50,133 nucleotides of DNA from contig CALRHC010000006.1 in the NCBI GenBank assembly GCA_943359335.1, positions 1 to 50,133 on the forward strand, written 5' to 3'. A program made the position numbers and the translations under genes. A model generated the notes under the pieces. That model made no database searches, had not been told where the DNA came from, and saw nothing but the letters and a program-made list of their open reading frames with translations. Shown here one piece after another: positions 4,897-31,672 of the stretch (within the stretch, counting starts at the first letter, position 1; each line of letters begins with the position of its first letter). The stretch is from Candidatus Yanofskyibacteriota bacterium. GTDB lineage: Bacteria; Patescibacteriota; Minisyncoccia; JACQLN01.

Positions 4897-4991
4897 ACAT
4901 CTCTCCTAACAGCATTCATGGAGAAAACCTAAATCAGTTGACGATGAACCTTGCTTAGGCAAGCTTCATATATCGTTGTTAGGAGAGATGT
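4897..4991 (-). repeat. Structured intergenic element, copy A
   Basis: 14-bp perfect outer stem ACATCTCTCCTAAC/GTTAGGAGAGATGT; 3' core CTCCATGAATGC; internal hairpin TGCCTAAGCA shared with copy E. Confidence 0.7.
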
Positions 4992-5004
4992 TTAAATTTG
5001 TAAG

Positions 5005-6081
5005 CTACATCAAAGTATATATTTGCCCTCCCATGTTTTTTATATATCCATTAAGTTCTAAACTGGTTAACACTGAACTGACCACATGGGGCTTAAGTTT
5101 AGTTATTTGAATAATTTTGTCAATGTGAGCGGGTTCTGTTTGAATTAAATTTATTATATTTTTTTCTTCTTCGGTAAATTTATTTAAATCAATTTCTATC
5201 TTTTCTTTCGTGCTTAATTTTTTTAAATTAAGTTCTTGTAAAACATCCTCGGCACATAATACTACTTTGGCTCCGTCTTGCAAAAGTTTATTGGTTCCAG
5301 CAGATGTTGTATTGGTGATAGGGCCTGGTACGGCAAAGACTTCGCGGTTAGCCTCTAAGGCTTGCTTCGCCGTTATTAAGGCGCCACCGTCTATTTTAGA
5401 TTCTATAACTAATGTTCCCAAAGATAAGCCGGCGATTATTCTATTTCTTGCTGGGAAGTTCTGTTTAAAAGCTTCTGTACCCGCAGGGTATTCGGAAAGA
5501 ATTAAGTTGTCTTTTTTTAACATTTCTGCGGCCAAAGGTTCGTTCATTCTTGGATAAATTTGATCCACGCCACAACCCAACACGCCAATTGTTTTGCCGC
5601 CATGTTTTAGTGTGGCTGAATGTGTTAATGCATCAATGCCTTGAGCTAAGCCACTAACAATTGTTAAACCAGATTCCACTAGTTGCGGTATAAGAATATC
5701 TACTGCAGTGCGACCATAACCCGAAGGGGTTCTGGTGCCAACTACTCCAATACTTTTTGTGTGTAAAAGATCAGCGTTGCCTTTCAAGTATAACAGAATT
5801 GGCGAGGAAGATATTTCTTTTAACAGTTTTGGGTAACTTTTTTCAAAAAAAGAAATTGTTTTTATATTTAATTTTTCTAGTTTTCCCCATTCGGTTTTTG
5901 GATTTACTATTTCTCTTTTGGCGAGTGCCTCTTTTATACTCTCGCCATTAAAATCCAACTGTAAAATTTTTCCCGCCGGCGCATTCCACGCTCTTTCGGC
6001 GGTTTTAAAAACAAAGAGTAATTTTTTTATTCGCGAAAGCCCGTAAACAATGTTTAGAGCATTAAGCCATAAATTGTCCAT
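5005..6081 (-). CDS. dprA: DNA processing protein DprA/Smf
   Basis: GVVGTRTPSGYGR, SGLAQGIDALTHSATLKHGGKTIGVLGCGVDQIYP, SEYPAGT, FPARNRIIAGLS; C-terminal winged helix. Confidence 0.95.
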   Translation of the reverse strand: MDNLWLNALNIVYGLSRIKKLLFVFKTAERAWNAPAGKILQLDFNGESIKEALAKREIVNPKTEWGKLEKLNIKTISFFEKSYPKLLKEISSSPILLYLKGNADLLHTKSIGVVGTRTPSGYGRTAVDILIPQLVESGLTIVSGLAQGIDALTHSATLKHGGKTIGVLGCGVDQIYPRMNEPLAAEMLKKDNLILSEYPAGTEAFKQNFPARNRIIAGLSLGTLVIESKIDGGALITAKQALEANREVFAVPGPITNTTSAGTNKLLQDGAKVVLCAEDVLQELNLKKLSTKEKIEIDLNKFTEEEKNIINLIQTEPAHIDKIIQITKLKPHVVSSVLTSLELNGYIKNMGGQIYTLM

Positions 6082-6106
6082 GTTCTTTAAATAATATCAT
6101 GGAGAA

Positions 6107-8029
6107 TTATGTTTTAAGTTTTTCTACGGCTTGGGAAAGCATTTCGCAGTATAAGTTTAAACCAATTTGGTTTATGTGGCCTGATTGGTTTCGGCCCAAA
6201 ATGTTGCCGGCGCCACGAAGCTCTAAATCGCGTAAAGCGATTTTAAAACCATCACCTAAGTTAGAAAATTCTTGCAAAGCTATTAAGCGGCTCTCGGCCA
6301 AACTAGAAACTGTTTTTTTGTCGTGTAGAAAGTAAACAACTGCTTTAATATCGCGCCTGCCTACGCGGCCACGTAACTGGTGAGCTTGGGATAAGCCAAG
6401 TTTGGTAGCATCGGAAACAATTAATGTGTTGGCATTAGGCAGGTCAATTCCATTTTCTATAATAGTTGTAGAAACTAAAACATTACTGGCGCCACTTTTA
6501 AAACTTTCAACTGCGTCTATAATTTGCTTTTCACCCATACGGCCATGTAGTGCGGTTAATTTGGCCTGAGGCACAAGTTCTTTTATTTGTTCCATTACAG
6601 AATTTATTTTATGGATTCTATTTTCTAAAAAGAAAACTTGGCCGTGGCGGGCGAGTTCAAACTCTACAGCTTTTTTTATTGTATCCCAAGAAAAATTTTC
6701 TATTTTAGTTTCCACAGCTTCGCGGCCAAGTGGCGGTGTCTGTATTTTAGAAATTGGTTTTAAATTAGACATAGCCAAATAAAGTGTACGGGGAATAGGT
6801 GTGGCTGAAAGCATTAAAACGTCTATATTAGCTTTTAGTTTTTTTATTTTTTCTTTTTGTAAAACACCAAAGCGTTGTTCTTCGTCTATTATTAAAAGCC
6901 CAAGATCTTTAAATTCTACGTCTTTAGAAAACAAACGATGCGTGCCAATTATCACATCAACCGTACCTAGTTTAATTTTTTTAGCAAAATCTTTATTTAC
7001 TTCCTCTGCATTTAAACGGCTAAGCATGGCTATGCTAACTCCATGTTTTTCTAAGCGGTTACTAAAAACATCGTAATGTTGGCGGGCTAAAATTGTTGTA
7101 GGCGAAATTAAAGCAACTTGCTTTCCAGAAATTACACTTTTAAATGCGGCGCGAATAGCAAGTTCGGTTTTACCAAAGCCAACATCACCCACTAAAACCC
7201 TATCCATTGGTTTTTCGTTTTCCATATCGGTTTCTATTTCTTTCCAGCTTCGGGATTGATCCGGAGTTTCGGGGTATTCAAAATCGGCAATAATATTTTC
7301 CATTTCTTGGGAATTTTTAACAAAACTAAAACCGCGCGAAACTTCGCGGTTGGCATATAATTGCAATAAATCTTTAGCTAACTTTACAACATCTTCTTTA
7401 GCTTTTGTTTTTATTTTGTACCATAAGTTTCCACCCAAACCATGAACCTTAGGGCGAGTAAAGCCAACGTACAAAGATATTTTTTTAACTTGCTCAAAGG
7501 GCAAAAACAATCTGTCGCCTTTGGCGTATTCAATTTCGAAATAGTTTTCTAAATCGGTGGTGGCGCCTTTTAACTTGCCAATACCGTGGTCTATGTGAAC
7601 CACGTAATCGCCAGCTTTAAAGCGTGTATAAATTTTTTCTAGTTCGTCTAATTCGGCTTCGGGAGATTTTGTTTTTGGTTTTTCTAGTTCGGAAATATTT
7701 TCTATGTTGTTGCCGTTAAAATCAAAAGCCAGTGGGTTGTCTAAATTTACCGGCCAGATAGTTAAAATAGAGCCTAAAAAAGAAACTTCGCCTGGGTTTA
7801 AAACAGGACTCGTTTTGGTATAACCAAAATCAGCGAGTTCGCGAATTAAAGCGAGGGGATTAATTTTTAAATCTTTTTCCAAGATGCGCACATGATTACG
7901 CCACCAAATATTTTTTTGGCTTAAAACTTTAATTTTATTTTCATTTTCTTTGAACCACAAAACGCCCTGATTTCTAAATTCAGGGATATTCGCGACGACA
8001 AGTATTGAATCTAATGTGCTTTTTTGCAT
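6107..8029 (-). CDS. mfd: Mfd/TRCF-like helicase, shortened (RNAP-interacting and helicase domains)
   Basis: FKAGDYVVHIDHGIGKLKG (CarD/RID-like), GDVGFGKTELAIRAAFK, DEEQRFGVLQKEKIK, LSATPIPRTLYLAMS, QAHQLRGRVGR; 640 aa. Confidence 0.88.
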   Translation of the reverse strand: MQKSTLDSILVVANIPEFRNQGVLWFKENENKIKVLSQKNIWWRNHVRILEKDLKINPLALIRELADFGYTKTSPVLNPGEVSFLGSILTIWPVNLDNPLAFDFNGNNIENISELEKPKTKSPEAELDELEKIYTRFKAGDYVVHIDHGIGKLKGATTDLENYFEIEYAKGDRLFLPFEQVKKISLYVGFTRPKVHGLGGNLWYKIKTKAKEDVVKLAKDLLQLYANREVSRGFSFVKNSQEMENIIADFEYPETPDQSRSWKEIETDMENEKPMDRVLVGDVGFGKTELAIRAAFKSVISGKQVALISPTTILARQHYDVFSNRLEKHGVSIAMLSRLNAEEVNKDFAKKIKLGTVDVIIGTHRLFSKDVEFKDLGLLIIDEEQRFGVLQKEKIKKLKANIDVLMLSATPIPRTLYLAMSNLKPISKIQTPPLGREAVETKIENFSWDTIKKAVEFELARHGQVFFLENRIHKINSVMEQIKELVPQAKLTALHGRMGEKQIIDAVESFKSGASNVLVSTTIIENGIDLPNANTLIVSDATKLGLSQAHQLRGRVGRRDIKAVVYFLHDKKTVSSLAESRLIALQEFSNLGDGFKIALRDLELRGAGNILGRNQSGHINQIGLNLYCEMLSQAVEKLKT

Positions 8030-8125
8030 CGCCTAGAGAATATTGTAAGGGTTCTGTAGTTTAGAGTCAAAAACACGGTAAATGCTTGGTTTTTTATCGG
8101 AAGGACTACCCTTCCTAGCGTGCTA

Positions 8126-8153
8126 TTGACAGGATTTATGGATATGCTATACT
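8126..8153 (+). promoter_or_regulatory. Sigma70-like extended -10 promoter
   Basis: TTGACA - 16 nt - TATACT preceded by TGC. Confidence 0.6.
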
Positions 8154-8156
8154 GTG

Positions 8157-8463
8157 CAGGTACCATAAAAATTTGGGCTGACGTGCCTTCGTACTTTTCC
8201 AGCGATGGAGGCCAGGGATGCGTGTAACATGTAGCTCATAGTGCCCAAGCAAGCACTATGTCTGCTATCTCTGATAGCCGAGACGTCACAATTGTCACCT
8301 AGCCCACTGGTGACCAGCATAGAGTTTCTAGGGCTCTTTGCTGAGGAAATGCAGGTAGAGGTCGTGAACGGACTGGAAACCGTTCGATGCCAAGCAGAGG
8401 CATTAGATTTCTACAGTACCAGTTAAAGTACCTCCCCCGCGCCAAAAGGCGCGGGGATTTTTT
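8157..8463 (+). ncRNA. Candidate structured ncRNA, unassigned family
   Basis: Promoter upstream; hairpins CATAGTGC/GCACTATG, GCTATC/GATAGC, GTCACC/GGTGAC, ACGG/CCGT; 5' GGTAC and 3' GTACC can close it; ends in terminator CCCCGCGCCaaaaGGCGCGGGGATTTTTTT. Confidence 0.6.
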
Positions 8464-8465
8464 TA
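8435..8465 (+). terminator. Rho-independent terminator
   Basis: CCCCGCGCC aaaa GGCGCGGGG followed by T-tract. Confidence 0.85.
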
Positions 8466-8519
8466 TTCATACCTTAAAGCCTTCACGGGATTTTTCTTAG
8501 AAGCTTGGCTGGTTTACCC
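8463..8519 (-). pseudogene. C-terminal remnant of a second MacB-like permease gene
   Basis: Minus-strand translation G*TSQASKKNPVKALRYE* aligns with the C-terminus of the adjacent permease, YPARQASKKNPVEALRYE*. Confidence 0.7.
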
Positions 8520-8553
8520 GCCGCTAGTTCATTTTAAATTATATAAAACTATT

Positions 8554-9834
8554 TTACTCGTATCGAAGTGCTTCTACAGGGTTCTTTTTAGATGCCTGGC
8601 GGGCGGGGTAAATTCCAAAAACAAGGCCAATAGTTGTAGAAACACCAAGTGCTAATAATATAGAAGAAAGAGGCAAAGCGAATGTCCAATCGGATACGGC
8701 AAATTTAGAAATTCCTAAATAAATTAAAAAACTAAAACCAGCGCCGCCAATAATTCCTACAAGACCACCGATGGAAGTTAAAATTATTGCTTCGGTTAAA
8801 AATTGCTGCATAATATCGGCATTGGTTGCACCAACGGCTTTACGTAAACCAATTTCGCGCGTGCGTTCAATAACCGAAACCAACATTATATTCATAATTC
8901 CAATTCCGCCAACTACTAAAGAAATTGCGGCAATGGAAGCTAAAAATATTTTTAAGATAGAAGTTATATTCCCTAAAATAGCGAGAACATCTTCTTGGGT
9001 CCGAATTTCGAAATCGTCTTTATCGGGATTAGTTATATTGTGGTTTTGACGCAAAATAGAAGTTATGCGGGATTTTATAAATTCTATACTATAGTTATTA
9101 TTACCTTGAATAAATATTGCGCCATAATGATTTACGCCTAAAAGTTGTTTTTGGGCGACCAATATTGGAATAAAAATAGTATTGTCCAGGTCGGCGCCAA
9201 ACACACCGGTGCCTTCTTTGGCGAGTACTCCCACCACTTTAAAAGAGTGATTTTTTAATCTAATATTTTTTCCTACAGGTTCTTTTTCGCCAAATAATTT
9301 TTTTGCGGATTCTGAACCTAAAACAGCAACCTTAGTCATGGTTTCATTGTCTCTATGGTTTAATAACCTACCCTTCTTGACCTTAAGGTTTATAATTTCA
9401 AAATATTCTCCAGTTACACCATTATAGGTTGCGGAAATATCATTGTTTCCATAAACAGCACGGGCTTGGCCATGAACTTCGCCAGCAACTTTTTCTATGG
9501 AAGGGTCTTTTCTAAAAGATTCTAAATCACGCTCTTTTAGGGTTTTAATAATTATGCCGAAAGCTGAAGCAGGTGGAGAAAATTTAGAACCTTGGGTAGC
9601 ACCCGGAATAACAAAAACCAAATTAGAACCAATATCTTCAACTTGCGAAATTATTAATTTTTGAGCCGAAGTACCAATAGACATTAATAAAATAACAGAG
9701 GCTATACCAATTACTATGCCGAGCATGGTTAATATGGCGCGAGTTTTAGCGTGTTTTAAACCGGTGAGCGCAGTTTTTAATGAATCACTTACCTTCATAG
9801 GTTTGGGAAAGAATATTTTTAACCTCACCATCAA
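8554..9834 (-). CDS. MacB-like ABC transporter permease (FtsX fold)
   Basis: LKTALTGLKHAKTRAILTMLGIVIGIASVILLMSIG, IMNIMLVSVIERTREIGLRKAVGA, ARQASKKNPVEALRYE. Confidence 0.93.
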   Translation of the reverse strand: MMVRLKIFFPKPMKVSDSLKTALTGLKHAKTRAILTMLGIVIGIASVILLMSIGTSAQKLIISQVEDIGSNLVFVIPGATQGSKFSPPASAFGIIIKTLKERDLESFRKDPSIEKVAGEVHGQARAVYGNNDISATYNGVTGEYFEIINLKVKKGRLLNHRDNETMTKVAVLGSESAKKLFGEKEPVGKNIRLKNHSFKVVGVLAKEGTGVFGADLDNTIFIPILVAQKQLLGVNHYGAIFIQGNNNYSIEFIKSRITSILRQNHNITNPDKDDFEIRTQEDVLAILGNITSILKIFLASIAAISLVVGGIGIMNIMLVSVIERTREIGLRKAVGATNADIMQQFLTEAIILTSIGGLVGIIGGAGFSFLIYLGISKFAVSDWTFALPLSSILLALGVSTTIGLVFGIYPARQASKKNPVEALRYE

Positions 9835-10492
9835 TTTCTATCTCACCGTCTTTTAAGCGGATCAATCGTTTAGCAAATTGGGCGGTATAGGTTTCGTGTG
9901 TAACTAAAATAATTGTTTTGCCTGCTTCGTTTAATTTTTTTAAAATCTGCATTATGTTTTCGCCCGAATGAGAATCTAGGTTTCCGGTAGGTTCATCGGC
10001 AAAAATAACATTGGGATTATTAACTAAGGCGCGGGCGATAGCCACACGTTGTTTTTGTCCGCCCGATAACCTACTAGCTTCTACGTTTGTTTTTTCGGTT
10101 AACCCAACATCGTTAATTGCTTTTTCTACAAGTTTTTTTCGTTCACTTGGTAAAATTGTGGAATACAGCAAAGGTAATTCTACATTTTGATAAACAGTGG
10201 ATCTGCCCAACAAATTAAAAGCCTGAAAAACAAAACCCATTTCTTTGTTTCTAACATTAGCAAGTTCGGTATCGTTCATATCTTCCATTTTTTTCCCAAA
10301 AAAAGAATACGAACCGGTACTGGCTCGGTCCATAAAACTTAAAATATGAAGTAGGGTAGATTTACCCGAACCGGATGGCCCCATAATGGCCACAAATTCT
10401 CCAGAGTTTATTTTAAATGTAACTTCTTTTAGAGCTTGAGTTTCGCTACCATCGTTTTCATAGTTTCTAGAAATTTTTTCTACAAGAATCAT
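9785..10492 (-). CDS. ABC transporter ATP-binding protein (MacB/LolD type)
   Basis: [41 protein letters not shown]. Confidence 0.95.
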
Positions 10493-12019
10493 TTAGTTTG
10501 TTTTTAAGCCTATATTGGCTACAGCGTCGCCTTCGCTTAAACCAGAAATAACTTCTACCATGCCATTATCCGAATAAATTCCGGTTTTTATTTCCACTTC
10601 TTCTAGGTTTTTATCTTCGGTTGAAACTTTAGCGTCTAAAGCTACGGTTTGTTTATATTTTTTTACAAACGTGCCTTTGTCGTTTTCTATAACGGCAAAT
10701 TGAGGCACAACCAAAACATTTTCTTTGGTTATGGTTAATATTGTTAAGTTTGCAGTTAAACCACTCTTTAATCTAGGTTCTGTTTTTTCTAATCCAACTT
10801 TAATTTTAAAATTAGTTACACCATCTATTGCAGTTTCGGCAGGTTCAATATAGATTACTTTGCCTGTAAAATTTTCTTCGCCTAGCGCATCGAAAGTTAT
10901 ATTTACTGGATTTAATAAAGATATTTTTGCTACATCAACTTCGGGTACATAGGCTTCTATTTCCAACGATGAATCCGAAATTATATTTATTAAAGGCGAA
11001 CCAGCTTGAGCGATTTCTCCTTTCTTAGCATCTATTTTTGTTACGGTTCCGGCGATTGGGGAGTATAAAACAGTTTTTCCTAATTGAGATTGTATTAATT
11101 TTATACTAGCTTCGGCGCGTTTAACTTGAGCTTCGGCGGAGGCTAGGCCTTCGGTAGTGGAGCCAGATTTTTTTAGATTTAAGTTTTTTGTAGCTAAAGA
11201 AAAGGATGATTCTGCGGAGCTTAGGTTCTGGCTAGCCGAATTTACTTTGGTTCTGGCCAAAGAAACATTAGCTTTATATGTTTCGTTGGTTGTGTTGTTT
11301 ACTGCAATAGCTAGTTTATCTAGAAATATTTTTATTTGGCTTAAATATATGGATGTTTTTTCTAATTTTTTTGTAATACTTAGCGAAGTGCTAAGGTTTT
11401 TCCAATCGTTTAAATTAGATTCTGTGGCAAGACGCATGTTTTCTAAGTCTGTTTTTAATTGGGGATCGGTAATAACAATATTTATTTTTGGATTGGCTGT
11501 TTTAGCATTAGAAAAAATAATATCTATATCGTTATGTATCGCGTCATCAGCTTTGGTATAAGCGTCGTTAATTTTTTCTAACAAATTTGTTTCGGCATTA
11601 TTTAGTTCTGTTTCGTAAACAGCAATTTCTTCTACGCGTGCGCCATTTTTAATTTCGTTGTATTGAGCTTGTTCGGATTCTAGTTCGGCTTGGGCCTGTA
11701 ATAGTTGGGCATAAAGTTCGCTAGAATCTATTGAAGCCAGAGCTTGATTGGCAGAAACTTTATTGCCCACAGAGACATTAACCTTTGTTATTTTACCGCT
11801 TCTTTCAAAGCCTAAACTAACGTCGGAGTTTGGCACAGTTTTTCCTGTAACATTAACTTCTTGAGAAATTGTACCTTTTTTAACTTCTACAAAAGTTATG
11901 GTTTTATCGGCACCACCAGTAAAGATTACTATTAACACTATTACAGCAAGTACTCCTACTATTATGGATAGGCGAGGACGAGCCTTTAAGATAGAGATTA
12001 TACGCTTAAATATGTTCAT
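10493..12019 (-). CDS. Membrane fusion protein (HlyD/MacA family)
   Basis: Single N-terminal TM, lipoyl-like halves (VNVSVGNKVSANQALASIDSSEL; SPIAGTVTKIDAKKGEIAQAGSPLINII), long coiled coil. Confidence 0.9.
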   Translation of the reverse strand: MNIFKRIISILKARPRLSIIVGVLAVIVLIVIFTGGADKTITFVEVKKGTISQEVNVTGKTVPNSDVSLGFERSGKITKVNVSVGNKVSANQALASIDSSELYAQLLQAQAELESEQAQYNEIKNGARVEEIAVYETELNNAETNLLEKINDAYTKADDAIHNDIDIIFSNAKTANPKINIVITDPQLKTDLENMRLATESNLNDWKNLSTSLSITKKLEKTSIYLSQIKIFLDKLAIAVNNTTNETYKANVSLARTKVNSASQNLSSAESSFSLATKNLNLKKSGSTTEGLASAEAQVKRAEASIKLIQSQLGKTVLYSPIAGTVTKIDAKKGEIAQAGSPLINIISDSSLEIEAYVPEVDVAKISLLNPVNITFDALGEENFTGKVIYIEPAETAIDGVTNFKIKVGLEKTEPRLKSGLTANLTILTITKENVLVVPQFAVIENDKGTFVKKYKQTVALDAKVSTEDKNLEEVEIKTGIYSDNGMVEVISGLSEGDAVANIGLKTN

Positions 12020-12052
12020 ATGTTGTTATTTTATTGCCAAGCAAATATAGCC

Positions 12053-12081
12053 TCTTGACAATAGAATGTCAAGGTGATATA
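12053..12081 (+). promoter_or_regulatory. Sigma70-like promoter
   Basis: TTGACA - 17 nt - TATATT in cttgacaatagaatgtcaaggtgatatatta. Confidence 0.6.
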
Positions 12082-12087
12082 TTACAA

Positions 12088-12479: not shown

Positions 12480-12481
12480 AC

Positions 12482-14167: not shown

Positions 14168-14245
14168 ATATGACTCCAAACAGCGACATGGAGCCTCTCT
14201 ATTTATATTAAAACTATTCTCCATGAATGCTATTTGGAGTCATAT
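14168..14245 (+). repeat. Structured intergenic element, copy B
   Basis: ATATGACTCCAAA ... TTTGGAGTCATAT outer stem; core CAGCGACATGGAGCCTCTC ... CTCCATGAATGCT. Confidence 0.8.
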
Positions 14246-14376
14246 TTGGGTAAGCTAAATACAAGGAGTTGTAGGTTTTTACTTACACTTAGATAAACAA
14301 ACCTCCTTGCGTGCCCTGCCGAAGCTTTAGCGGAGGAGGGAAATCGCTCAGCAGCAATTCGGAGGTCTTGGTTACA

Positions 14377-14495
14377 AACTATCCCTCCTTGTAGCATCCC
14401 CGCCAGAGGCGGGCAGGCATGGAGTTTACCTGCCGTAGGCAGGAAGACTATTTATACAATAAAGAGGCTCCATGTCGCTATAAGGAGGGATAGTT
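14377..14495 (-). repeat. Structured intergenic element, copy C with internal GC-rich hairpin insertions
   Basis: AACTATCCCTCCTT/AAGGAGGGATAGTT outer stem; minus-strand core AGCGACATGGAGCCTCT ... CTCCATG ... ATGCTA; inserts CCTGCCGTAGGCAGG and CCCGCCAGAGGCGGG. Confidence 0.75.
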
Positions 14496-19349: not shown

Positions 19350-19433
19350 AAGCAACACTTCTCGCAGACGACACGGAGTCCTCTCAATTATATATACCTT
19401 GTCATCTCCGTGATGCTGCGAGAAGCGTTGCTT
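19350..19433 (+). repeat. Structured intergenic element, copy D
   Basis: AAGCAAC-a-CTTCTCGCAG/CTGCGAGAAG-c-GTTGCTT outer stem; core ACGACACGGAGTCCTCTCAATT ... GTCATCTCCGTGATGCT. Confidence 0.8.
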
Positions 19434-22642: not shown

Positions 22643-22673
22643 CAAATTAAAGCAGTCTAAATTTTTCTTGTCA
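22643..22673 (-). promoter_or_regulatory. Sigma70-like promoter of microprotein operon
   Basis: Minus strand TTGACA-agaaaaatttagactgc(17)-TTTAAT. Confidence 0.5.
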
Positions 22674-22913: not shown

Positions 22914-25757
22914 ATGAGAAATTCTGCTGTTGCCGAAAATAAATCGGCCGAAGTTGTAAAGAAAAATGGTCGTACTGGGCAAGAAGATAAAATTTCTTTA
23001 GTAAAAAGATATTTTACTAAAGCCAATGTTCATCCATACGATGAATTTAAATGGGAAAAACGAGATATAAAAATATCTGGTTCACAGGGGACATTGGTAG
23101 ACGCCAAAAATTTAGAGTTTCCAAAGTTTTGGTCTCATAACGCCGCAAGTATTGCTGGTTCTAAGTATTTTCGCGGTTCGGGCGATAAGCGTGAAACTTC
23201 GGTTAAGCAGATGATAAACCGTGTGGTAAAAAATATTACCGCATGGGGCGAGTCTTCTGGCTATTTTAATACTAAAGCCGAAGCCAAAGCCTTTGAAGAC
23301 GAATTAACTCACTTATTGGTTTACCAAAAATCGGCTTTTAACAGCCCCGTTTGGTTTAATGTTGGTATAAAAGAAAAACCACAATGTTCCGCCTGCTTTA
23401 TTTTAAGCGTCGACGATAATATGGAATCCATAATGGAATGGATTTCTACCGAAGCTAGAATTTTTAAAGGTGGTTCTGGTGCTGGTATAAATTTATCGGC
23501 GCTACGATCTTCTCGTGAACCATTATCGCATGGAGGTTTTTCTTCTGGACCGGTTTCGTTTATGCGTGGCGCCGATTCTGTAGCAGGAATGATAAAATCG
23601 GGTGGAGCCACAAGGCGTGCCGCTAAAATGGTTTTGTTAAACATAGACCACCCCGATGTAATGGAATTTATTCGTTGTAAAGCCGAAGAAGAAAAAAAGG
23701 TTCACGCACTTATTAGCACTGGTTACAATATGAAGAACCTTAACGAACCAGCTTGGGCTTCTATACAGTATCAAAATGCCAACAACTCCGTTCGCTTATC
23801 CGATGAATTTTTAAAAGCAGTAGAAGAAGACAAAGAATGGAGTACTAAATTTATTACTACAGGTAAAGTTGCTAATACCTATCAAGCTCGCGAACTTATG
23901 CACGAAATTTCGCAAGCGGCTTGGGAATGTGCCGACCCTGGGGTTCACTATAAAACCATAATAGATAAATGGCATACATCTTCTAACACTGGTCCAATAA
24001 ACGGCTGTAACCCTTGCAGTGAATATATGCACTTAGATAATTCGGCTTGTAATTTGTCTTCTATAAATTTAATTCACTTTTTAAATGAAGACGGAAGTTT
24101 TAAAGTTAGAGATTTTGTTCAAGCGGTAGATATTATGATTTTGGCGCAAGAAATTATTGTAGGGCATTCTTCGTATCCAACTCCAAAAATAGAACAAACC
24201 GCGCACGATTTTAGAGAATTAGGTTTAGGTTTTACAAATTTGGGTGGGTTGTTAATGGCGAAAGCTTTAGCTTACGATTCTAATGAAGCACGCGCTTGGG
24301 CGGGTTCTATAACCGCGCTTATGAGCGGCGAAGCTTACAGATTGTCTGCGGTTATTGCTTCAAAAATTGGTGCGCATAATGGATATGCTGTAAATAAAGA
24401 ACCACAGTTAAAAGTTATTGGCATGCATCGCGATAAAGTAAAAGAAATTAATGCAAAAGTTTTAGATGATAAGAAACTTTTAAAAGCCGCAAGCGACACT
24501 TGGATAGAAGCATATAATTTAGCCAAAAAACATGGAGTTAGAAATTCTCAAGTAACTGTTATTGCTCCAACAGGTACTATTGCTTTAATGATGGATTGCG
24601 CTTGCACAGGTGTTGAACCTTTGTTTGCTCCTTTGGTTTACAAACAACTTGTCGGTGGCGGTTATATGAAATTTGTGGCCGATACTATCCCTTTGTCTTT
24701 GCAAAAGCTTGGATATTCTACAAGTGAAAACGAAGAAATAATGAAATATATAGAAGACAAAGGTATTGTAGAGGGCGCGCCAAATTTAAAAGAGGAACAC
24801 TTAGCAATTTTTGATTGCGCAGTAAAACCAGCTGCTGGTACACGATCTATTCATTGGCAGGGGCACGTAAAAATGGTGGCCGCGGTTCAGCCATTTATTT
24901 CGGGTGCGATTTCTAAAACATTTAATATGCCAGAAGAAACCACAGTAGAAGAAATTCAAGATGCATATATGATGGGTTGGAAATTAGGGCTTAAAGCTTT
25001 CGCGGTTTACAGAGATGGTTGTAAAGCAGCACAACCGTTGTCTACCAAGAAAAAAGAAAAAGATTCTGCACCTGCTGAAGCTAAAGCAGAGACCGAAATT
25101 AAAACTGTAAATGTTGTGCCACAACAAAGAAAACTACCGGCCACGCGTTTATCGGAAACACATAAGTTTACAATCGCGGGGCATCAGGGATTTTTAACTC
25201 ACAGTATTTACGACGACGGTACTTTGGCCGAAATATTTATTCGTATTGCTAAACAAGGTTCAACTTTAGCAGGCTTATTAGATACATTCGCAATTTCTGT
25301 TTCTATGGCATTACAACACGGTGTGCCACTTAAAAAATTGTGCCACCAGTTTATACATGGGCGTTACGAACCGATGGGTTTTACCGAGAACGCCAATATT
25401 CCGATGGTAAGTTCTATAACAGATTATATTTTTAAATATTTGGCTTTGCGGTTTTTGCAGGCCGATGATTTAGCTGAATTCGGTTTAGATTCTGCCAATA
25501 GAATAGAAACTCATATGCCTTCCATTAAAGATAATTCATCCGAAGCGAGCGGTTTGATTATGGAAAGTTTGGCGGCCAAAGAATCTGTGGTGGTTGCAAC
25601 AGTTGCCCAACCTGAGGTTGGGCAACCTAGGGCTGAAAAAACAGTAGGTGTTATTTATGCCGGCACTGTTTGCAAACTTTGCGGTGGCATGATGATTCGC
25701 ACAGGAACCTGTTTAACTTGCAGGCAGTGCGGTGAAGCGAGCGGGGGATGCTCTTAA
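22914..25757 (+). CDS. nrdJ: Adenosylcobalamin-dependent (class II) ribonucleotide reductase
   Basis: KSAFNSPVWFNVG, CSACFILSVDDNMESIMEW, FKGGSGAGINLSALRS, NPCSEYMHLDNSACNLSSINL, APTGTIA; C-terminal zinc ribbon CKLCGGMMIRTGTCLTCRQCG. Confidence 0.93.
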   Translation: MRNSAVAENKSAEVVKKNGRTGQEDKISLVKRYFTKANVHPYDEFKWEKRDIKISGSQGTLVDAKNLEFPKFWSHNAASIAGSKYFRGSGDKRETSVKQMINRVVKNITAWGESSGYFNTKAEAKAFEDELTHLLVYQKSAFNSPVWFNVGIKEKPQCSACFILSVDDNMESIMEWISTEARIFKGGSGAGINLSALRSSREPLSHGGFSSGPVSFMRGADSVAGMIKSGGATRRAAKMVLLNIDHPDVMEFIRCKAEEEKKVHALISTGYNMKNLNEPAWASIQYQNANNSVRLSDEFLKAVEEDKEWSTKFITTGKVANTYQARELMHEISQAAWECADPGVHYKTIIDKWHTSSNTGPINGCNPCSEYMHLDNSACNLSSINLIHFLNEDGSFKVRDFVQAVDIMILAQEIIVGHSSYPTPKIEQTAHDFRELGLGFTNLGGLLMAKALAYDSNEARAWAGSITALMSGEAYRLSAVIASKIGAHNGYAVNKEPQLKVIGMHRDKVKEINAKVLDDKKLLKAASDTWIEAYNLAKKHGVRNSQVTVIAPTGTIALMMDCACTGVEPLFAPLVYKQLVGGGYMKFVADTIPLSLQKLGYSTSENEEIMKYIEDKGIVEGAPNLKEEHLAIFDCAVKPAAGTRSIHWQGHVKMVAAVQPFISGAISKTFNMPEETTVEEIQDAYMMGWKLGLKAFAVYRDGCKAAQPLSTKKKEKDSAPAEAKAETEIKTVNVVPQQRKLPATRLSETHKFTIAGHQGFLTHSIYDDGTLAEIFIRIAKQGSTLAGLLDTFAISVSMALQHGVPLKKLCHQFIHGRYEPMGFTENANIPMVSSITDYIFKYLALRFLQADDLAEFGLDSANRIETHMPSIKDNSSEASGLIMESLAAKESVVVATVAQPEVGQPRAEKTVGVIYAGTVCKLCGGMMIRTGTCLTCRQCGEASGGCS
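25602..25626. repeat. Palindrome inside nrdJ coding sequence
   Basis: GTTGCCCAACC tga GGTTGGGCAAC, 11-bp perfect arms, encoding VAQPEVGQP linker. Confidence 0.8.
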
Positions 25758-25777
25758 TTAGCTTTTAGGATTTACCC

Positions 25778-25812
25778 AGTAACGCATACAGAATGTACGT
25801 TACTGGGTTAGC
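25778..25812. terminator. Hairpin after nrdJ within AGCTTCATT-type flanks
   Basis: ACCCAGTAACG catacagaatgta CGTTACTGGGT. Confidence 0.55.
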
Positions 25813-25872
25813 TTCATTAGCTTATTAGGAAAATAAAAAGACTGTCGCTTAAATTACAAGCGACAGTCTTGG

Positions 25873-26109
25873 TTAAGACCTCAACACGTGACTACCACAT
25901 GAAGGGCAGAGAATAATTTCTTCTTTGCCGTTGGTGCGGTTCGCCATAATGGTAGTTTTACATTCATGGCAGACGTGTTTCGGGTCGGGAGAAAATTTAT
26001 ACAAGGGAAGTCTCTTAGACTTCAACCCTTTTTGTACTGCAGAGAGTACTTTTAGGGTTTCATCAAAATCTTCACAGAAGATCATGATGACATGATTTTC
26101 TTTGTACAT
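25873..26109 (-). CDS. Hypothetical zinc-ribbon protein
   Basis: aaggaggtaagaATG; CHECKTTIMANRTNGKEEIILCPSCGSHV. Confidence 0.7.
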   Translation of the reverse strand: MYKENHVIMIFCEDFDETLKVLSAVQKGLKSKRLPLYKFSPDPKHVCHECKTTIMANRTNGKEEIILCPSCGSHVLRS

Positions 26110-26172
26110 TCTTACCTCCTTCCTGTGGTTAATGTACATAAACTTTTTAACAGATATTATATTTTAAGTCAA

Positions 26173-26691
26173 ATGCTGATTGTTGTAACAGGAAATGGTA
26201 AGGGTAAAACTACAAGCGCTTTGGGACAGGCGTTACGTGTGGTTGGTGAAGGCGGCAAGGCCATAATGTATCAGTTTATAAAAGGGCCGTGGAAATCGGG
26301 CGAGGATGAAAGTATGAAGCGTTTAATGCCGGAATTTGAAATTATAAAAGGTGGCAAGGGTTTTGTTGGAATTTTGGGCGATCCATATCCACGCTCGGTT
26401 CATATAAAAGCCGCCGAAGAAACTTGGTCCACAGCTAAAAAAGCTATAGAATCTAAAAAATATCAGTTGGTGGTTTTAGACGAAATAAATGTAGCTATTA
26501 AATTAGGCTTACTAAAAGTAGGGCCAGTGTTTTCTTTTTTGAAAAAGTATCGTGGAATTGTTAATATTATGGTTACAGGGCGCGATGCACACGATAAGCT
26601 TATAGAATTAGCAGATTTAGTTTCGGAAGTTAAAGAAATAAAGCACCCTTTTAATAAAGGTGTGGGTGCTAGGAAGGGAATTGAGTATTAA
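26173..26691 (+). CDS. cobO: Cob(I)yrinic acid a,c-diamide adenosyltransferase (CobA/CobO/BtuR type)
   Basis: IVVTGNGKGKTTSALGQALRVVGEGGKAIMYQFIKGPWKSGED, VVLDEINVAIKLGLL, VMVTGRDAH-like segment. Confidence 0.92.
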   Translation: MLIVVTGNGKGKTTSALGQALRVVGEGGKAIMYQFIKGPWKSGEDESMKRLMPEFEIIKGGKGFVGILGDPYPRSVHIKAAEETWSTAKKAIESKKYQLVVLDEINVAIKLGLLKVGPVFSFLKKYRGIVNIMVTGRDAHDKLIELADLVSEVKEIKHPFNKGVGARKGIEY

Positions 26692-26697
26692 TTTAAA

Positions 26698-26750
26698 AAC
26701 CCCCGAAGCCTGCCCGCCGGCAGGCGGGTCGCTCAATAGCACAAAGGGGT
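26698..26750. repeat. Second intergenic hairpin motif with TCGCTCAATAGCA core and GC-rich insert
   Basis: ACCCCCGAA gcctgcccgccggcaggcggg TCGCTCAATAGCACAAAGGGGT. Confidence 0.6.
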
Positions 26751-26767
26751 ATTGGAGAATAATTAAA

Positions 26768-26884
26768 ATGTTTGCTTTAGGTTTAATAATTGGTTTTTTA
26801 GCTGGGTTTTTCTTAGGCGGAGTAATCGCTGTTGTTTCGGCTGCGAACTGGGAAGATATTACAGGGTTTTTCTCGGGTAAATAA
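26768..26884 (+). CDS. Single-TM microprotein (38 aa)
   Basis: MFALGLIIGFLAGFFLGGVIAVVSAANWEDITGFFSGK. Confidence 0.5.
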   Translation: MFALGLIIGFLAGFFLGGVIAVVSAANWEDITGFFSGK

Positions 26885-26889
26885 ACAAA

Positions 26890-26979
26890 ATGCTTATTGG
26901 ATTATTAATTGGTTTTGCTGTTGGTTTAGTACTCTCTCTTTTAATTGCATTTGCCATGGCTTCAAAAAACGGTTTTTAG
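26890..26979 (+). CDS. Single-TM microprotein (29 aa), related to previous
   Basis: MLIGLLIGFAVGLVLSLLIAFAMASKNGF; followed by AAGTCCGCC...GGCGGACTT hairpin. Confidence 0.45.
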   Translation: MLIGLLIGFAVGLVLSLLIAFAMASKNGF

Positions 26980-27048
26980 TTTATAAAAAAGTCCGCCGTA
27001 GCATTGCTAGAGGCGGACTTTGCATATTCTGGTAAGTTTTCGAAATAC

Positions 27049-27612
27049 TTATTCTTCCTGAGCTCTGCGAACATAGGAACCTGTTCTGGTGTCTACTTCT
27101 ATTTTTTCTCCAGCTTCAATAAATAATGGAACTTTTATTTCGGCGCCTGTTTCTAATATGGCGTCTTTTAGTGCGCCCTGCACAGTGTCACCACGAGCGG
27201 CTGGTGGAGCATCTTTAATTTCTAAAATAACCTTAATGGGTAATTCTAAAGATATTGGTTTACCTTTAAAAACAAAAATATCTACCTGCATATCTTTCTT
27301 TAAGAATTTAATTTTATCTTCTAAAATATCTTCGCCAAAACCCATTTTTTCTCCACCTTCTGATTGGAAAAAGAATTCGTTTTTGGTGCGGTATGTAAAC
27401 TTAGATTTTAAGCGTTCTATTTCGGCCTCTTTTATACTGTCTGATTGCTGGAAAGTTTCTGAACGAACTTTGCCCGTAATTACGTTGCGGATTTTGGTTT
27501 GCATAACTGGCCTGCGTTGAGCCACTTTATTAAAGTTAGATTCTAAAACTTGGTAGGGTTCACCCTCCAAATCTATCAAAACACCGGGCCTTAGATCGTT
27601 CATTGAAAGCAT
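27049..27612 (-). CDS. efp: Elongation factor P
   Basis: KOW-like N-domain LRPGVLIDLEGEPYQVLES and OB domains; VQGALKDAILETGAEIKVPLFIEAGEKIEVDTRTGSYVRR. Confidence 0.95.
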   Translation of the reverse strand: MLSMNDLRPGVLIDLEGEPYQVLESNFNKVAQRRPVMQTKIRNVITGKVRSETFQQSDSIKEAEIERLKSKFTYRTKNEFFFQSEGGEKMGFGEDILEDKIKFLKKDMQVDIFVFKGKPISLELPIKVILEIKDAPPAARGDTVQGALKDAILETGAEIKVPLFIEAGEKIEVDTRTGSYVRRAQEE

Positions 27613-27665
27613 ATTTTTATATATTTATTAGGCTGTAAAACAAAAACTGATTATACTTTAAAGTA

Positions 27666-28817
27666 ATGAAATCAGCAAGAGCTCTAGTGGGCCTTTCTTT
27701 TGGATTTTTAATAGGTGTACTAGCTCAATCCATTTTAGGTTTTTCTTTCTGGTTGATTTTTGGTTTAGTTTTAGCCGCTATAATTTGTTCGGTTTTAGAA
27801 ATTTTCGGCGGGTCTGGTAGGTCGTTTTTATTTTTTATTATTTTATTTTCTGCAGCGCTAGGTTTTTTAAGAGCGGGAACATACAAAGAGGATTTTTCTA
27901 AGGAAGAAAAAGTTTTTTGGAATACTTCGCGTGAATATTTGGTTAACCGCACAAAATCAATTTTACCGCAAAACGAAGGTGCCCTTTTTAATGCTATGGT
28001 TTTTGGTTACGAAAAAGATGTTTCGCAAAAAATTAAAGAAGATTTTAACATAACGGGCACTCGGCATGTTTTGGCAATTTCTGGAATGAATATTTCTATA
28101 ATTGCTTTAATGATAATGAATTTTGGGCTTTGGTTGGGTTTGTGGCGGCGCCAAGCTTTTTATGTAGCGGTTTTGGCGGTAATAGCTTTTATATTTTTGG
28201 TAGGTTCGCCGGCTTCGGCAGTACGCGCCGGCATAATGGGCATACTTTTACTTTGGGCAAAAAATAAAGGTCGGTTAATGCAAGCTTGGCGGCCAATAAT
28301 GTTGGCCGCATTTTTTATGGTGGCGTTAAACCCAAAACTTTTGGTTTTTAGTATTGGCTTCCAGCTTTCTTTTTTAGCGGTTATTGGCATTATTTATTTT
28401 AAAAATTTTTGGGATAGAATTTTGTTTTTTATTCCTATAAAACCGATGCGCGAACTTGTTGTGCTTTCCATGGCGGCACAAACCACAACTTGGCCAGTAA
28501 TTTTATATAATTTTGGAACGCTTTCGGTAATAAGCCCAATTGCCAATATTTTTGTGGTGCCAATGCTTAACCCTATAATGTTTTTAGGTTTGGGGTTTGT
28601 GGCAGTTTCTTTTTCTAGCTATTTATCACAAATATTTTTGTGGCCAGTTTGGCTTATTTTAAAGGCTAATATAAAAATTGTGGAATTTTTTGCATCATTT
28701 AACTGGGCAAGCATTAATTTAGGCAAAGCAGGCCTAATTACTTTTATTTTTTATCCATTTCTTTATTTATTTTGGTTATACTTAGAAAAGCACAACCTTA
28801 ATGATTCGGTTAACTAA
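27666..28817 (+). CDS. comEC: ComEC/Rec2 competence membrane domain protein
   Basis: HVLAISGMNISIIALM, SPASAVRAGIMGILLLWAK, multiple TMs. Confidence 0.92.
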   Translation: MKSARALVGLSFGFLIGVLAQSILGFSFWLIFGLVLAAIICSVLEIFGGSGRSFLFFIILFSAALGFLRAGTYKEDFSKEEKVFWNTSREYLVNRTKSILPQNEGALFNAMVFGYEKDVSQKIKEDFNITGTRHVLAISGMNISIIALMIMNFGLWLGLWRRQAFYVAVLAVIAFIFLVGSPASAVRAGIMGILLLWAKNKGRLMQAWRPIMLAAFFMVALNPKLLVFSIGFQLSFLAVIGIIYFKNFWDRILFFIPIKPMRELVVLSMAAQTTTWPVILYNFGTLSVISPIANIFVVPMLNPIMFLGLGFVAVSFSSYLSQIFLWPVWLILKANIKIVEFFASFNWASINLGKAGLITFIFYPFLYLFWLYLEKHNLNDSVN

Positions 28818-29628
28818 AAGCTTTATTTTAGGAATTTTAACTTTTCTTACAGTTTTAATTTTTTGGTTTGTTTTCGAAAAGGAAAATCAAACAGCCAAAG
28901 TAATATTTTTAGATGTTGGCCAAGGCGATAGCCAGTTGGTGGTTTTGCCGAGCGATATTCAAATTTTAATAGATGCTGGGCCATCGGCTGATGTTTCGGC
29001 AAAAATTTCGCGCTATATTCCTTTTTACGACAAAGATATTGAACTTGTTATTTTAAGTCATCCACATGCCGATCACTTGCGCGGCTTACTTTCTGTTTTA
29101 AAAGATTATAACGTTAAAAACTTTATGTTTGCAGGCGCTAATTATGAAAGCAAAGTTTACAGCGATTTTTTAAACATACTTAAAAATGAAGGTAGTAATG
29201 TTTATTTGGCTGAAGCGGGAGATTTGATTAGTTACGAAAAAGACCCAATTTTAAAAATATTGGCTCCGTTAAAAAACACGCTAAGCAAAAATTTTAAAGG
29301 CATACACGAAAGTATGGTTGTGAGTGAACTTAGTTTAGGAAATAAAAAATTTCTGTTAACAGGTGATATGGAAGAATTCTTGGAGCAGCAACTCATCAAA
29401 TCAAATTCTGTAGAAGATGTAGATGTTCTTAAGATTGGTCATCATGGTTCTAAAACTTCTACATCGCAAAAACTTTTGGAGGTGGCCAAACCCGAAGAAG
29501 CTATTATACAAGTAGGTAAAAATTCTTATGGGCACCCTACGCCGCAGGTTTTGAATAGGTTAAATAAGTTTGGAATTAAGGTTTTTAGAAACGACCAGTT
29601 GGGCGACATTGTTTATCAATCCCGTTAG
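28801..29628 (+). CDS. ComEC-type metallo-beta-lactamase fold protein
   Basis: FLDVGQGDSQLVVLPSDIQILIDAG, LSHPHADHLRGL, LTGDMEEFLE, LKIGHHGSKTSTS. Confidence 0.92.
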   Translation: MIRLTKSFILGILTFLTVLIFWFVFEKENQTAKVIFLDVGQGDSQLVVLPSDIQILIDAGPSADVSAKISRYIPFYDKDIELVILSHPHADHLRGLLSVLKDYNVKNFMFAGANYESKVYSDFLNILKNEGSNVYLAEAGDLISYEKDPILKILAPLKNTLSKNFKGIHESMVVSELSLGNKKFLLTGDMEEFLEQQLIKSNSVEDVDVLKIGHHGSKTSTSQKLLEVAKPEEAIIQVGKNSYGHPTPQVLNRLNKFGIKVFRNDQLGDIVYQSR

Positions 29629-29691
29629 AAACCATGCCCGCCCCGCGCTTTGCGCGCCCGAAGGGCTTGAGGCGGACTGTTTCTAATGGGG
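29621..29691. repeat. Palindromic element CCCGTTAGAAAC...GTTTCTAATGGGG with GC-rich inner hairpin
   Basis: Arms 29621-29632 and 29679-29691; contains stop codon of the upstream CDS. Confidence 0.75.
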
Positions 29692-29724
29692 CGAATAACC
29701 AATAAATAAGGCTGTTTATAAGTC

Positions 29725-29765
29725 TTGACTTTTACCATTATAATATGGTACTATTATATAGTACT
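29725..29765 (+). promoter_or_regulatory. Promoter with two nested palindromes
   Basis: TTGACT-18 nt-TACTAT; TACCAT-tataat-ATGGTA in the spacer and GTACTA-ttata-TAGTAC over the -10. Confidence 0.55.
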
Positions 29766-29808
29766 TTAACTTAACAAAAACTCACATTTTACCGTATCGG
29801 AGGATGCT

Positions 29809-29916
29809 ATGAAGAAACTAGCTATGCCAGTGTGGAGGTGGTGGGTCAAGGAATATGGCTTTGAGATTTTTCTGGGATTCGTTGTGGTTATTCTCATCAT
29901 CAGTATTTTGAGATAG
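29809..29916 (+). CDS. Single-TM microprotein (35 aa), missed by ORF track
   Basis: cggaggatgctATG; MKKLAMPVWRWWVKEYGFEIFLGFVVVILIISILR*. Confidence 0.6.
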   Translation: MKKLAMPVWRWWVKEYGFEIFLGFVVVILIISILR

Positions 29917-29925
29917 GAGTCTTAA

Positions 29926-30099
29926 ATGCCAAAACATACCAAGAAGGAAACAGATTTCGGTGGTCGCGCGATTGATGTCGCCGAGCACGAAGCCAGAAAA
30001 GTCTGGAAAGAAACTGGTGCTTACGAAGAGTGGAGCCAGACTTTCGATGAAACTTTTCAGACAGCACTCATGGATTTTGAATCACTGAATCAAAACTAA
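29926..30099 (+). CDS. Small soluble protein (57 aa), missed by ORF track
   Basis: gataggagtcttaaATG; MPKHTKKETDFGGRAIDVAEHEARKVWKETGAYEEWSQTFDETFQTALMDFESLNQN*. Confidence 0.6.
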   Translation: MPKHTKKETDFGGRAIDVAEHEARKVWKETGAYEEWSQTFDETFQTALMDFESLNQN

Positions 30100-30140
30100 C
30101 CCTCGGACAAATAGTCCGAATCACAAAAAGGAGGAACAAA

Positions 30141-30368
30141 ATGAGTTCTAATCCTCAAGAACTTCAATTGTTGGCTGATCGTGCAAAAGAAATTAGGGGT
30201 GACGGCCTGATGAATATTGCCGGAACCTTGAGTCTGATAGAGGACAGGATCAAGGTTGTCAAAGATGCTGGAAGAATGGTCGCCAAGATTCCTACAGGTG
30301 AAGGAATCATCGACATGGAGACTTACTGCAAAAGTTTGGAAGAAGATCTTATTCGGTGGTCTGATTAG
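30141..30368 (+). CDS. Hypothetical small protein (75 aa)
   Basis: aaaaaggaggaacaaaATG; operon-like with preceding small ORFs. Confidence 0.65.
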   Translation: MSSNPQELQLLADRAKEIRGDGLMNIAGTLSLIEDRIKVVKDAGRMVAKIPTGEGIIDMETYCKSLEEDLIRWSD

Positions 30369-30445
30369 ATGGCTGGCCTTCTGGATATAACCAGAGCCCT
30401 TCTGGGAATTCCCGAAAAGAAGTAGATGAAGCAGTACTTACATAG

Positions 30446-30475
30446 CTCTCGACGAAAGTCGGGGGCTTTTTTTAT
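30446..30475 (+). terminator. Rho-independent terminator of microprotein operon
   Basis: CTCTCGACgaaaGTCGGGGGCTTTTTTTATT. Confidence 0.75.
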
Positions 30476-30512
30476 TCTTTAAATTCGGTTAATATGTTAA
30501 CTCAATAAATAA

Positions 30513-30587
30513 ACCCCGTAGTAGAATTTCCGAAAGGCTTTCCTTCGGAAAACCAAAGAAAGAAATCGGAAATTCACTAGCAGGGCT
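30513..30587. repeat. Imperfect palindromic element before ndk
   Basis: CCCCGTAGTAGAATTTCCGA ... TCGGAAATTCACTAGCAGGG. Confidence 0.65.
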
Positions 30588-30592
30588 TCGAT

Positions 30593-31192
30593 ATGGCAAA
30601 CAATTTTCACCCCAAAGAAGAAGTAACATTTTTAATGGTTAAGCCCGATGGAGTTAAGCGTGGTTTAACCGGCGAAATTATTAAACGTATAGAGCAAAGA
30701 AACTTAAAAATTATTGCGCTTGGCATGGAAAAACCAACACGTGCAAAAGTAGATGGGCATTATCCTAAAGATGCTAAATGGGTTCATCGTATTGGCGAAA
30801 AAACTTTAGCTACATATGAAAAATATGGCTACGATGCTAAAAAAGAATTAGGCACTACTGATGCTGATAAAATCGGTAAAATGGTTAGAAATTGGGTTTT
30901 GGATTTTATGATTTCCGGCCCAGTTGTGAAAATGATTATAAAGGGTGTTCATGCGGTAGATATGGTTCGTAAGTTAGCAGGAAGCACGATGCCTTCATCG
31001 GCCGAGATGGGAACAATTCGTGGGGATTATTCTGTGGATTCACCAGCTTCGGCTAATCGTGACAAGCGATGTGTGCATAATATTGTGCACGCTTCGGAAA
31101 CTCCAGAAGAAGCTAAACATGAAATTGGATACTGGTTTAAAAAAGATGAGCTTTGCGATTATAAGCGAACAGATGAAGATTTAACTTTTTAA
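30593..31192 (+). CDS. ndk: Nucleoside-diphosphate kinase
   Basis: TFLMVKPDGVKRGLTGEIIKRIEQRNLKI, MIIKGVHAVDMVRKLAGSTMPSSAEMGTIRGDYS, NIVHASETPEEAKHEI. Confidence 0.95.
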   Translation: MANNFHPKEEVTFLMVKPDGVKRGLTGEIIKRIEQRNLKIIALGMEKPTRAKVDGHYPKDAKWVHRIGEKTLATYEKYGYDAKKELGTTDADKIGKMVRNWVLDFMISGPVVKMIIKGVHAVDMVRKLAGSTMPSSAEMGTIRGDYSVDSPASANRDKRCVHNIVHASETPEEAKHEIGYWFKKDELCDYKRTDEDLTF

Positions 31193-31200
31193 TTTTTTTA

Positions 31201-31301
31201 AAAATCACTCCGAGCAGCGACATGGTATAAACTTTGCCTAAGCAAAGTTTATCGTCAATAATTTAGTGATCATCTCCGTGAATGCTATTCGGCACGATTT
31301 T
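31201..31301 (+). repeat. Structured intergenic element, copy E
   Basis: AAAATC..CCGA..AGC / GCT..TCGG..GATTTT outer stem; core GCAGCGACATGG ... CATCTCCGTGAATGCTATTCGG; internal hairpin AAACTTTGCCTAAGCAAAGTTT. Confidence 0.75.
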
Positions 31302-31329
31302 TGAGTAAGTGGTTTTAAGACACTAAAAA

Positions 31330-31519
31330 ATCCGAGACTAATATCTCGGGTTTTTTAGTGAACTTGGTTTGGGATCTTAAAAGTGTGTTCAGCCTAGTTA
31401 ATAGGTGGGTTTCCGCAACGATCAACGCCCGAACGAATCAGCACGTAGTCGCTATTTAGGAATCCCTAGAACAATTATTTTGAGCTAAAACTTTTAAAAT
31501 CCTCCAACCACCAAGTTCA
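31330..31519 (-). ncRNA. Candidate rod-shaped structured ncRNA (6S-like architecture), unassigned
   Basis: Minus-strand promoter TTGAAA-16-TATAAT (31525-31552); closing stem GTGAACTTGGT/ACCAAGTTCAC; second helix GGAT.UUAAAAGU/ACUUUUAA.AUCC; terminator CCGAGAtattagTCTCGG + T-tract. Confidence 0.55.
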
Positions 31520-31596
31520 CTTTTATTATAGACCTGCTATATATCATTTCAAGTATGTTTATCCACCTAGTTTTTGTAGGTTTTTTGTGTTTTTGA

Positions 31597-31672
31597 CATC
31601 ATCCCGAATAGGCGACACGGAGTCCTCTCAATTGTATAATTGGTCATCTCCGTGATGCTATTCGGGACGATG
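31597..31672 (+). repeat. Structured intergenic element, copy F
   Basis: CATC-at-CCCGAATAG/CTATTCGGG-ac-GATG outer stem; core GGCGACACGGAGTCCTCTCAATTgtatAATTGGTCATCTCCGTGATGC. Confidence 0.8.

Follow-up and report, generated by a model that had tools for sequence, protein, structure and literature searches.

The stretch of DNA analyzed here (the window; 50,133 nt, contig CALRHC010000006.1) comes from a 592-kb Paceibacteria genome of the candidate phyla radiation (CPR), called G000 below, and carries a family of structured hairpins in its intergenic spacers. Within each hairpin, a conserved inner core lies inside an outer stem that varies from copy to copy while its pairing is kept; wobble-tolerant pairing is found on only one of the two strands, and copies have been gained or lost between sister genomes. 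We consider it probable, with modest confidence, that these elements are non-autonomous mobile hairpins in which the core is recognized, the stem only pairs, and the enzyme acts in trans. What we observed directly comprises the family, its fold, the strand asymmetry, an orientation bias, presence or absence at orthologous sites, and a nested subtype at several loci.

An earlier reading of the window without database searches (the sequence-only reading) had listed six copies, A to F, whose coordinates, strands, and quoted arms proved exact in a base-by-base check. The six copies are real, but the family is larger: G000 alone has 15 copies of what we call family 1, of which 14 were found with R1, a covariance model of the family-1 core, and one (C2:21259) was found by BLAST with copy E; the window thus holds 6 of the 15. 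The motif CTCCRTGANGC, with at most 1 mismatch, occurred 9 times, compared with 1.5 expected occurrences and none in shuffled sequences. R1 also matched 5 copies in G001, 12 in G002, and 18 in G003, all genomes of the same genus, and 6 in G004, a genome of the same family; this narrow model found no copies in 88 further genomes of the class. By protein search, the neighboring genomes are Parcubacteria/Sungbacteria-like metagenome-assembled genomes (G002 is JAUYOU010000026.1). The elements are roughly 75 to 110 bases long and dispersed in intergenic spacers. Those of the window are as follows.

4897..4991, minus strand: copy A, subtype 1b, in the dprA/topA spacer (Pfam).
14168..14245, plus strand: copy B, plain subtype 1a, in the divergent LytR/lepB spacer (Pfam).
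14377..14495, minus strand: copy C, subtype 1c, in the LytR/lepB spacer; two REP-like mini-hairpins are nested in it at fixed positions.
19350..19433, plus strand: copy D, plain subtype, directly behind the ftsA stop codon (Pfam).
31201..31301, plus strand: copy E, subtype 1b, directly behind the ndk stop codon (Pfam).
31597..31672, plus strand: copy F, plain subtype, upstream of an endonuclease III-like gene (Pfam).
4784..4879, minus strand (here the listed strand is the folding strand): family-2 element with the core CAAGGAGG...GGGAGGATGCAAG...CCTCCTTG.
14256..14372 (approximate boundaries), minus strand: a family-2 copy, probably decayed, that lies between B and C and was read by eye, with no model match.

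Copies A and E carry an extra hairpin, as had been reported, but do not share the 5' core; the CAYGGAG half is absent and a GCCTAAGC hairpin segment stands in its place. This subtype, 1b, also occurs at G000:C2:12313 and C2:21259. Subtype 1c contains two extra inserted mini-hairpins, CCTGCCTACGGCAGG and CCTGCCCGCCTCTGGCGGGG in copy C, and the same pair occupies the same two positions at G000:C1:62269 and G003:C16:8683. The mini-hairpins nested in subtype 1c at two fixed positions (14405-14445; L037 and L176), noted there as CCTGCCTACGGCAGG and CCTGCCCGCCTCTGGCGGG, resemble repetitive extragenic palindromic (REP) elements. The family-2 element at 4784..4879 has the same architecture as family 1, and the probable decayed copy appears to contain a nested mini-hairpin of its own (GAGCGATTTC / CAAGGAGGTTTG... 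/ CTCCTTG). A model of family 2, R2, also matches family-1 copies (E values of about 1e-7 to 1e-9), which indicates that the two families are homologous; family 4 is homologous to them as well. With R3, a combined superfamily model, matches were found in 21 of 384 class genomes in 18 genera, a patchy distribution, with up to 10 copies in G025, 9 each in G149 and G048, and 7 in G011; G000 to G004 and G022 are also among the positive genomes. Consistent with the earlier impression that no named family is involved, Rfam 15 gave no match above the gathering score; viral, phage, and plasmid collections, including IMG/VR, gave no match either, and nothing describing these hairpins was found in the literature on CPR palindromes, miniature inverted-repeat transposable elements (MITEs), or integrons. 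This hairpin family of Paceibacteria/CPR genomes is apparently undescribed so far.

Covariation was assessed with 31 pairs in a sequence-only alignment of 48 plain copies, using column shuffles and slid pairings as controls that are not tree aware. Two-sided changes were seen in 25 of the 31 pairs (18.6 ± 1.5 after shuffling) and in 237 cells (89.5 ± 7.1 after shuffling), and the covariation score was 0.377, compared with 0.166 for shuffled and at most 0.137 for slid controls; the proposed structured multicopy family with covariation therefore stands by these controls. RNA folding z scores against shuffles, calculated on the folding strand for 5 of the 6 window copies, were −8.5 (D), −8.4 (F), −8.1 (B), −6.8 (A), and −4.6 (E). 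The outer stems had been described as locus specific, and they are indeed paired and different; within this genus, however, the 48 plain copies share a degenerate consensus, AAACATCAYYCC(TC)GCAG / CTGC(TC)GGRATGATGTTT, which indicates that the stems are diverged rather than unrelated. The description applies in G149 and G011, where each copy has a long, nearly perfect outer stem that is unrelated to the stems of most other copies (examples are AGGCTGATAGTCCGAGCAA/TTGCTCGGACTATCAGCCT and AAGCTATGCTATAAACTC/GAGTTTATAGCATAGCTT). Complementarity of the outermost arms was 0.57 to 0.76 within copies versus 0.26 to 0.36 between copies. The core of the wider class is strikingly constant (CTCAAGGGGGAGTC ... 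AGGGGGGTTGTAAGGTC.CCCCCTTG at the R3 loci).

The mismatched TC/TC loop has become perfectly paired in copies D and F, G000:C3:26636, and G002:C70:20528. The CCTCC/CCCCC arm could be contested between two G-rich runs in families 2 and 4 and in the wider class, the second run being GGGAGG or GGGGGG, and the minimum free energy fold of 4784..4879 picks the alternative helix. The competing segments of this element and of the R3 loci (CAAGGAGG or GGGAGG versus CCTCCTTG) are conserved across the superfamily and may form a bistable fold. As reported, no T tract follows the stem on its 3' side; ahead of the stem, however, a run of 6 or 7 T residues is frequent in G000 and G002.

The elements fold on the strand opposite to the one on which they had first been read, as shown by the uncompensated changes, which are wobbles there. 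On the strand as first read, uncompensated family-1 cells in columns 14 to 43 were A.C/C.A in 43 cases and G.U in 6, and these A.C cells are G.U/G.T wobbles on the opposite strand; for family 2, we counted 18 G.U and 0 A.C on the folding strand. The folding strand was the more stable one in 47 of 55 family-1 copies (RNA parameters, P = 1.6e-8) and in 29 of 31 copies outside family 1. On this strand, the conserved 2x2 TC/TC loop becomes a tandem GA/GA, and family 2 has two tandem-GA steps, (GAGCGA)2.

Copies lie mostly directly behind a stop codon and often directly ahead of the next start, as judged with a simple open reading frame (ORF) finder. The folding strand is antisense to both neighbors in 49 copies and sense to both in 13 (two-sided binomial test, about 5e-6, with orthologous copies not independent). 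From the protein starts, we take the flanked sites to include the dnaG-rpoD and rplN-rplX spacers and positions upstream of fba, tpiA, rplU, dnaK, map, and tig. On G003:C4, the ten copies all have one orientation, and this strand consistency could reflect replication rather than transcription. An mRNA element acting in cis would be expected to tolerate G.U on the sense strand, and the opposite was observed: pairing was not conserved on the transcribed strand, since the gene-sense strand shows A.C instead of G.U. A folded DNA strand or a template-sense RNA intermediate is therefore favored over an mRNA element that acts in cis. Of the structured RNA proposed earlier, the structure is retained, but a cis-acting mRNA element is disfavored, since the pairing tolerance is on the other strand.

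Comparison of orthologous spacers revealed differences in occupancy. At LytR/lepB, G000 has B, the decayed family-2 copy, and C; G003 has one family-1 copy, G001 has a family-2 copy, and G004 is empty. The site of G000:C1:94886 is empty in G002 and G003, that of G003:C4:221715 is empty in G000 and G002, and G002:C67:2529 has an empty orthologous site in a sister genome; G003:C16:20974 occupies the rplN-rplX spacer, which is short in G000 and G002, and it too has an empty orthologous site. Neither outer-stem arm is present at the clean empty sites (those of G000:C1:94886 and G003:C4:221715), and therefore the stem is part of the insert. The sequence-only reading had suggested that the hairpin targets existing palindromes; with no arm there, a preexisting palindrome as the target is ruled out for these clean empty sites, as is an inverted duplication of the target flank. 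The rplN-rplX site looked at first like a flank duplication, which other sites did not support.

Occupied sites also differ in the type of core that they hold. Where G000 has copy D, G002 has a family-2 element at exactly the same place; at the fba site, family 1 is found in G000 and G003 and family 2 in G002, and at the tpiA site, family 1 is found in G003 and family 2 in G002. With the outer stem shared, 1b in G000 corresponds to a plain core in G002 at both the A site (1a) and the E site, and at 4784..4879 a family-2 core in G000 corresponds to a family-4 core in G002. The F site is plain in G000 and 1b in G002, with stems that differ by four compensated pair changes. Subtype 1c, with its identically placed hairpins, occupies three nonorthologous loci (C, G000:C1:62269, and G003:C16:8683), which requires copying, either by transposition or by ectopic conversion. 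Presence or absence at orthologous sites and this nested subtype at nonorthologous loci both bear out the earlier suggestion of a mobile hairpin. Direct repeats at the flanks were no longer than in mismatched controls: the longest shared word was 5.62 for the flanks of own copies and 5.54 for mismatched pairs, with none of 9 or longer, and apparent 7- to 8-bp target duplications (ATAGTTTT, CAATAAAA) were gone against cross-copy controls. No terminus of an insertion sequence (IS) or MITE was found that would explain the copies, an explanation that had also been raised.

Other features share these spacers. Upstream of dprA, G003 carries an insert of about 680 bp that contains two short ORFs (L186, G003:C4:206154-206838); the orthologous site holds a family-1 copy in G002 and a family-2 copy in G001. 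Sister genomes also have other, unrelated palindromic repeats in the same orthologous spacers, of an AT-rich CTAATGTCTAAT...ATTAGGCATT type and an ACGAAT type (L189, L191, L196, L317, and L286). Between E and F lies a candidate divergent 6S RNA (31356-31521, minus strand; Rfam 6S, 26.7 bits, E = 0.001, against a gathering score of 46.4), whose orientation relative to the flanking elements is flipped in G002 (L066).

Several known systems invite comparison. REP hairpins are short, dispersed, non-autonomous intergenic palindromes that act as single strands and have conserved stem irregularities (PMC3116915, PMC8266576), with a role for GTAG at the hairpin foot (PMC8266576). Our family resembles REP/REPIN as a folded single strand with conserved stem irregularities (the strand asymmetry and the 2x2 loop). 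It differs in that no cognate Y1 gene was found in or near copies (none in G000 and none adjacent in relatives), in having no GTAG-like foot or other conserved column outside the stem in the 48 aligned copies, and in combining a conserved inner core with a copy-specific outer stem. The attC site is a strand-specific hairpin of one strand with little sequence conservation in its stem (PMC2727003). The present elements likewise fold strand specifically and antisense to the upstream gene, as a bias rather than universally. In the cassette layout, attC stands directly behind the stop codon of a gene, with the folded strand antisense to that gene, a placement that most of our copies share. No R'/R'' heptanucleotide boxes were found, the outer stem and flanks being the least conserved parts; attC is conserved at the R boundaries and variable at the tip, whereas our elements show conservation at the tip and in the core but not at the boundaries. 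Furthermore, copies were seen solitary between core genes with no cassette array, although no search for the integrase family was made. ERIC, Correia (CREE), and similar elements are imperfect palindromes of about 100 to 130 bp that lie in spacers in both orientations and have a conserved core. Our elements match them in size, spacer location, both orientations, and the conserved core but have no shared terminal repeat, no detected target duplication, and locus-private outer stems; a MITE with target-site duplication is likewise not indicated, as short direct repeats at the flanks did not exceed the controls. Subterminal hairpins of IS200/IS605 elements are recognized as single strands (PMC6006769), as is proposed here; unlike them, no copy examined contains or adjoins a Y1 transposase, and the element is too short to encode one. 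By analogy, the elements may work like REP hairpins or attC sites, and we assign them to neither.

The alternatives differ in how they account for the strand, the distribution, and the enzyme. A functional structured RNA at each locus, antisense or intercistronic, acting in gene regulation, mRNA processing, or stabilization, is unlikely. It would fit the strong covariation, the G.U tolerance and tandem GA, the position directly behind stop codons within operons, and the occupancy of some sites in several species, but in most copies the strand that tolerates wobbles runs antisense to the mRNA, a conserved promoter-like flank or U tract was not seen by eye on the folding strand, and the neighbor genes are functionally unrelated; moreover, sites in close relatives are empty, the distribution is patchy, and Rfam has no match. 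Two narrower functions were rejected: an intrinsic terminator, given the absent T tract after the stem and the copies inside essential operons, and a small encoded peptide (ATGGAG...), the frame of which is not kept and the ATG of which is lost in CACGGAG copies.

A classical REP/REPIN system, moved by a Y1 transposase (TnpA-REP/RAYT) that resides in the relatives and that G000 has lost, is improbable. Y1 transposases about 220 amino acids long are present in G001 to G004; single-stranded action and conserved mismatches in the stem are described for REP hairpins (PMC8266576). The two kinds of element are also similar in position and dispersal. However, G000 has no Y1 gene, and the Y1 genes examined in relatives lie among different short palindromes with no family copy within about 900 nt; the stem foot also has no conserved tetranucleotide, and it is the core that is conserved rather than the ends. 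The solo Y1 transposases of G001 to G004 (L237-L243), most of which have a short palindrome of their own (e.g., TTCAACATTCAATGTTGAAC and CTGTCCAACACCAGGTGTTGGACAG), are probably separate REP-type systems of this CPR family that are absent from G000. Least probable of the readings considered is that these are mostly neutral palindromes, maintained by hairpin-templated correction and ectopic gene conversion with no continuing transposition or function. The TC/TC loops that have become perfectly paired in four copies look as if one arm had been copied, and core swaps within conserved outer stems fit as well, but this reading does not account for the empty sites, the appearance of copies at new loci, the conservation of mismatches in the internal loops, or the restriction of wobble tolerance to one strand.

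For the favored reading, that of a mobile hairpin served in trans, the steps that go beyond observation are a single-stranded DNA intermediate, the trans-acting enzyme, and recognition of the core. In a single-stranded DNA state, the folding strand would form the hairpin, and a recombinase or nuclease acting in trans would recognize the core, i.e., the inner stem with its internal loops; the folded strand would then be excised or copied and inserted into spacers. The outer stem would act as a clamp for which any sequence that pairs suffices, and it could drift as compensated changes accumulate, with wobble pairs as intermediates. The differing core types at orthologous sites may result from copies exchanging cores or from replacement by reinsertion at preferred sites. 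More specifically, and only tentatively, the elements may represent a novel class of mobile single-strand hairpin whose enzyme is unlike TnpA-REP or IntI, with the core CTCAAGGGGGAGTC...AGGGGGGTTGTAAGGTC.CCCCCTTG in a stem of arbitrary sequence, spread through many CPR families and lying antisense behind stop codons.

Several points weigh against the favored reading. No mobilizing enzyme was found among those examined (no Y1 gene in G000 and none adjoining copies in relatives), and transposition is deduced from comparison of genomes rather than from an observed event. No target duplication that would fix the exact ends of the element exceeded the cross-copy controls, and the occupancy of some sites in several species could reflect a local function. 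In the two outermost, poorly paired family-1 columns, the asymmetry is reversed (UG 9 versus AC 2); with DNA parameters, the strand difference is weaker (35 of 55 family-1 copies, P = 6e-4), and G.U/G.T tolerance by itself cannot tell RNA from single-stranded DNA.

Among free or episymbiotic bacteria, those of the CPR have some of the smallest genomes, which are regarded as streamlined. The hairpins described here form a lively palindrome family in the gene spacers of CPR bacteria, and they occur even in the dnaG-rpoD spacer and between genes for ribosomal proteins. A constant core enclosed by private, perfectly matched stems is an unusual signature, one that would separate the part that is recognized from the part that merely pairs and that makes the search for a single-strand recombinase concrete.

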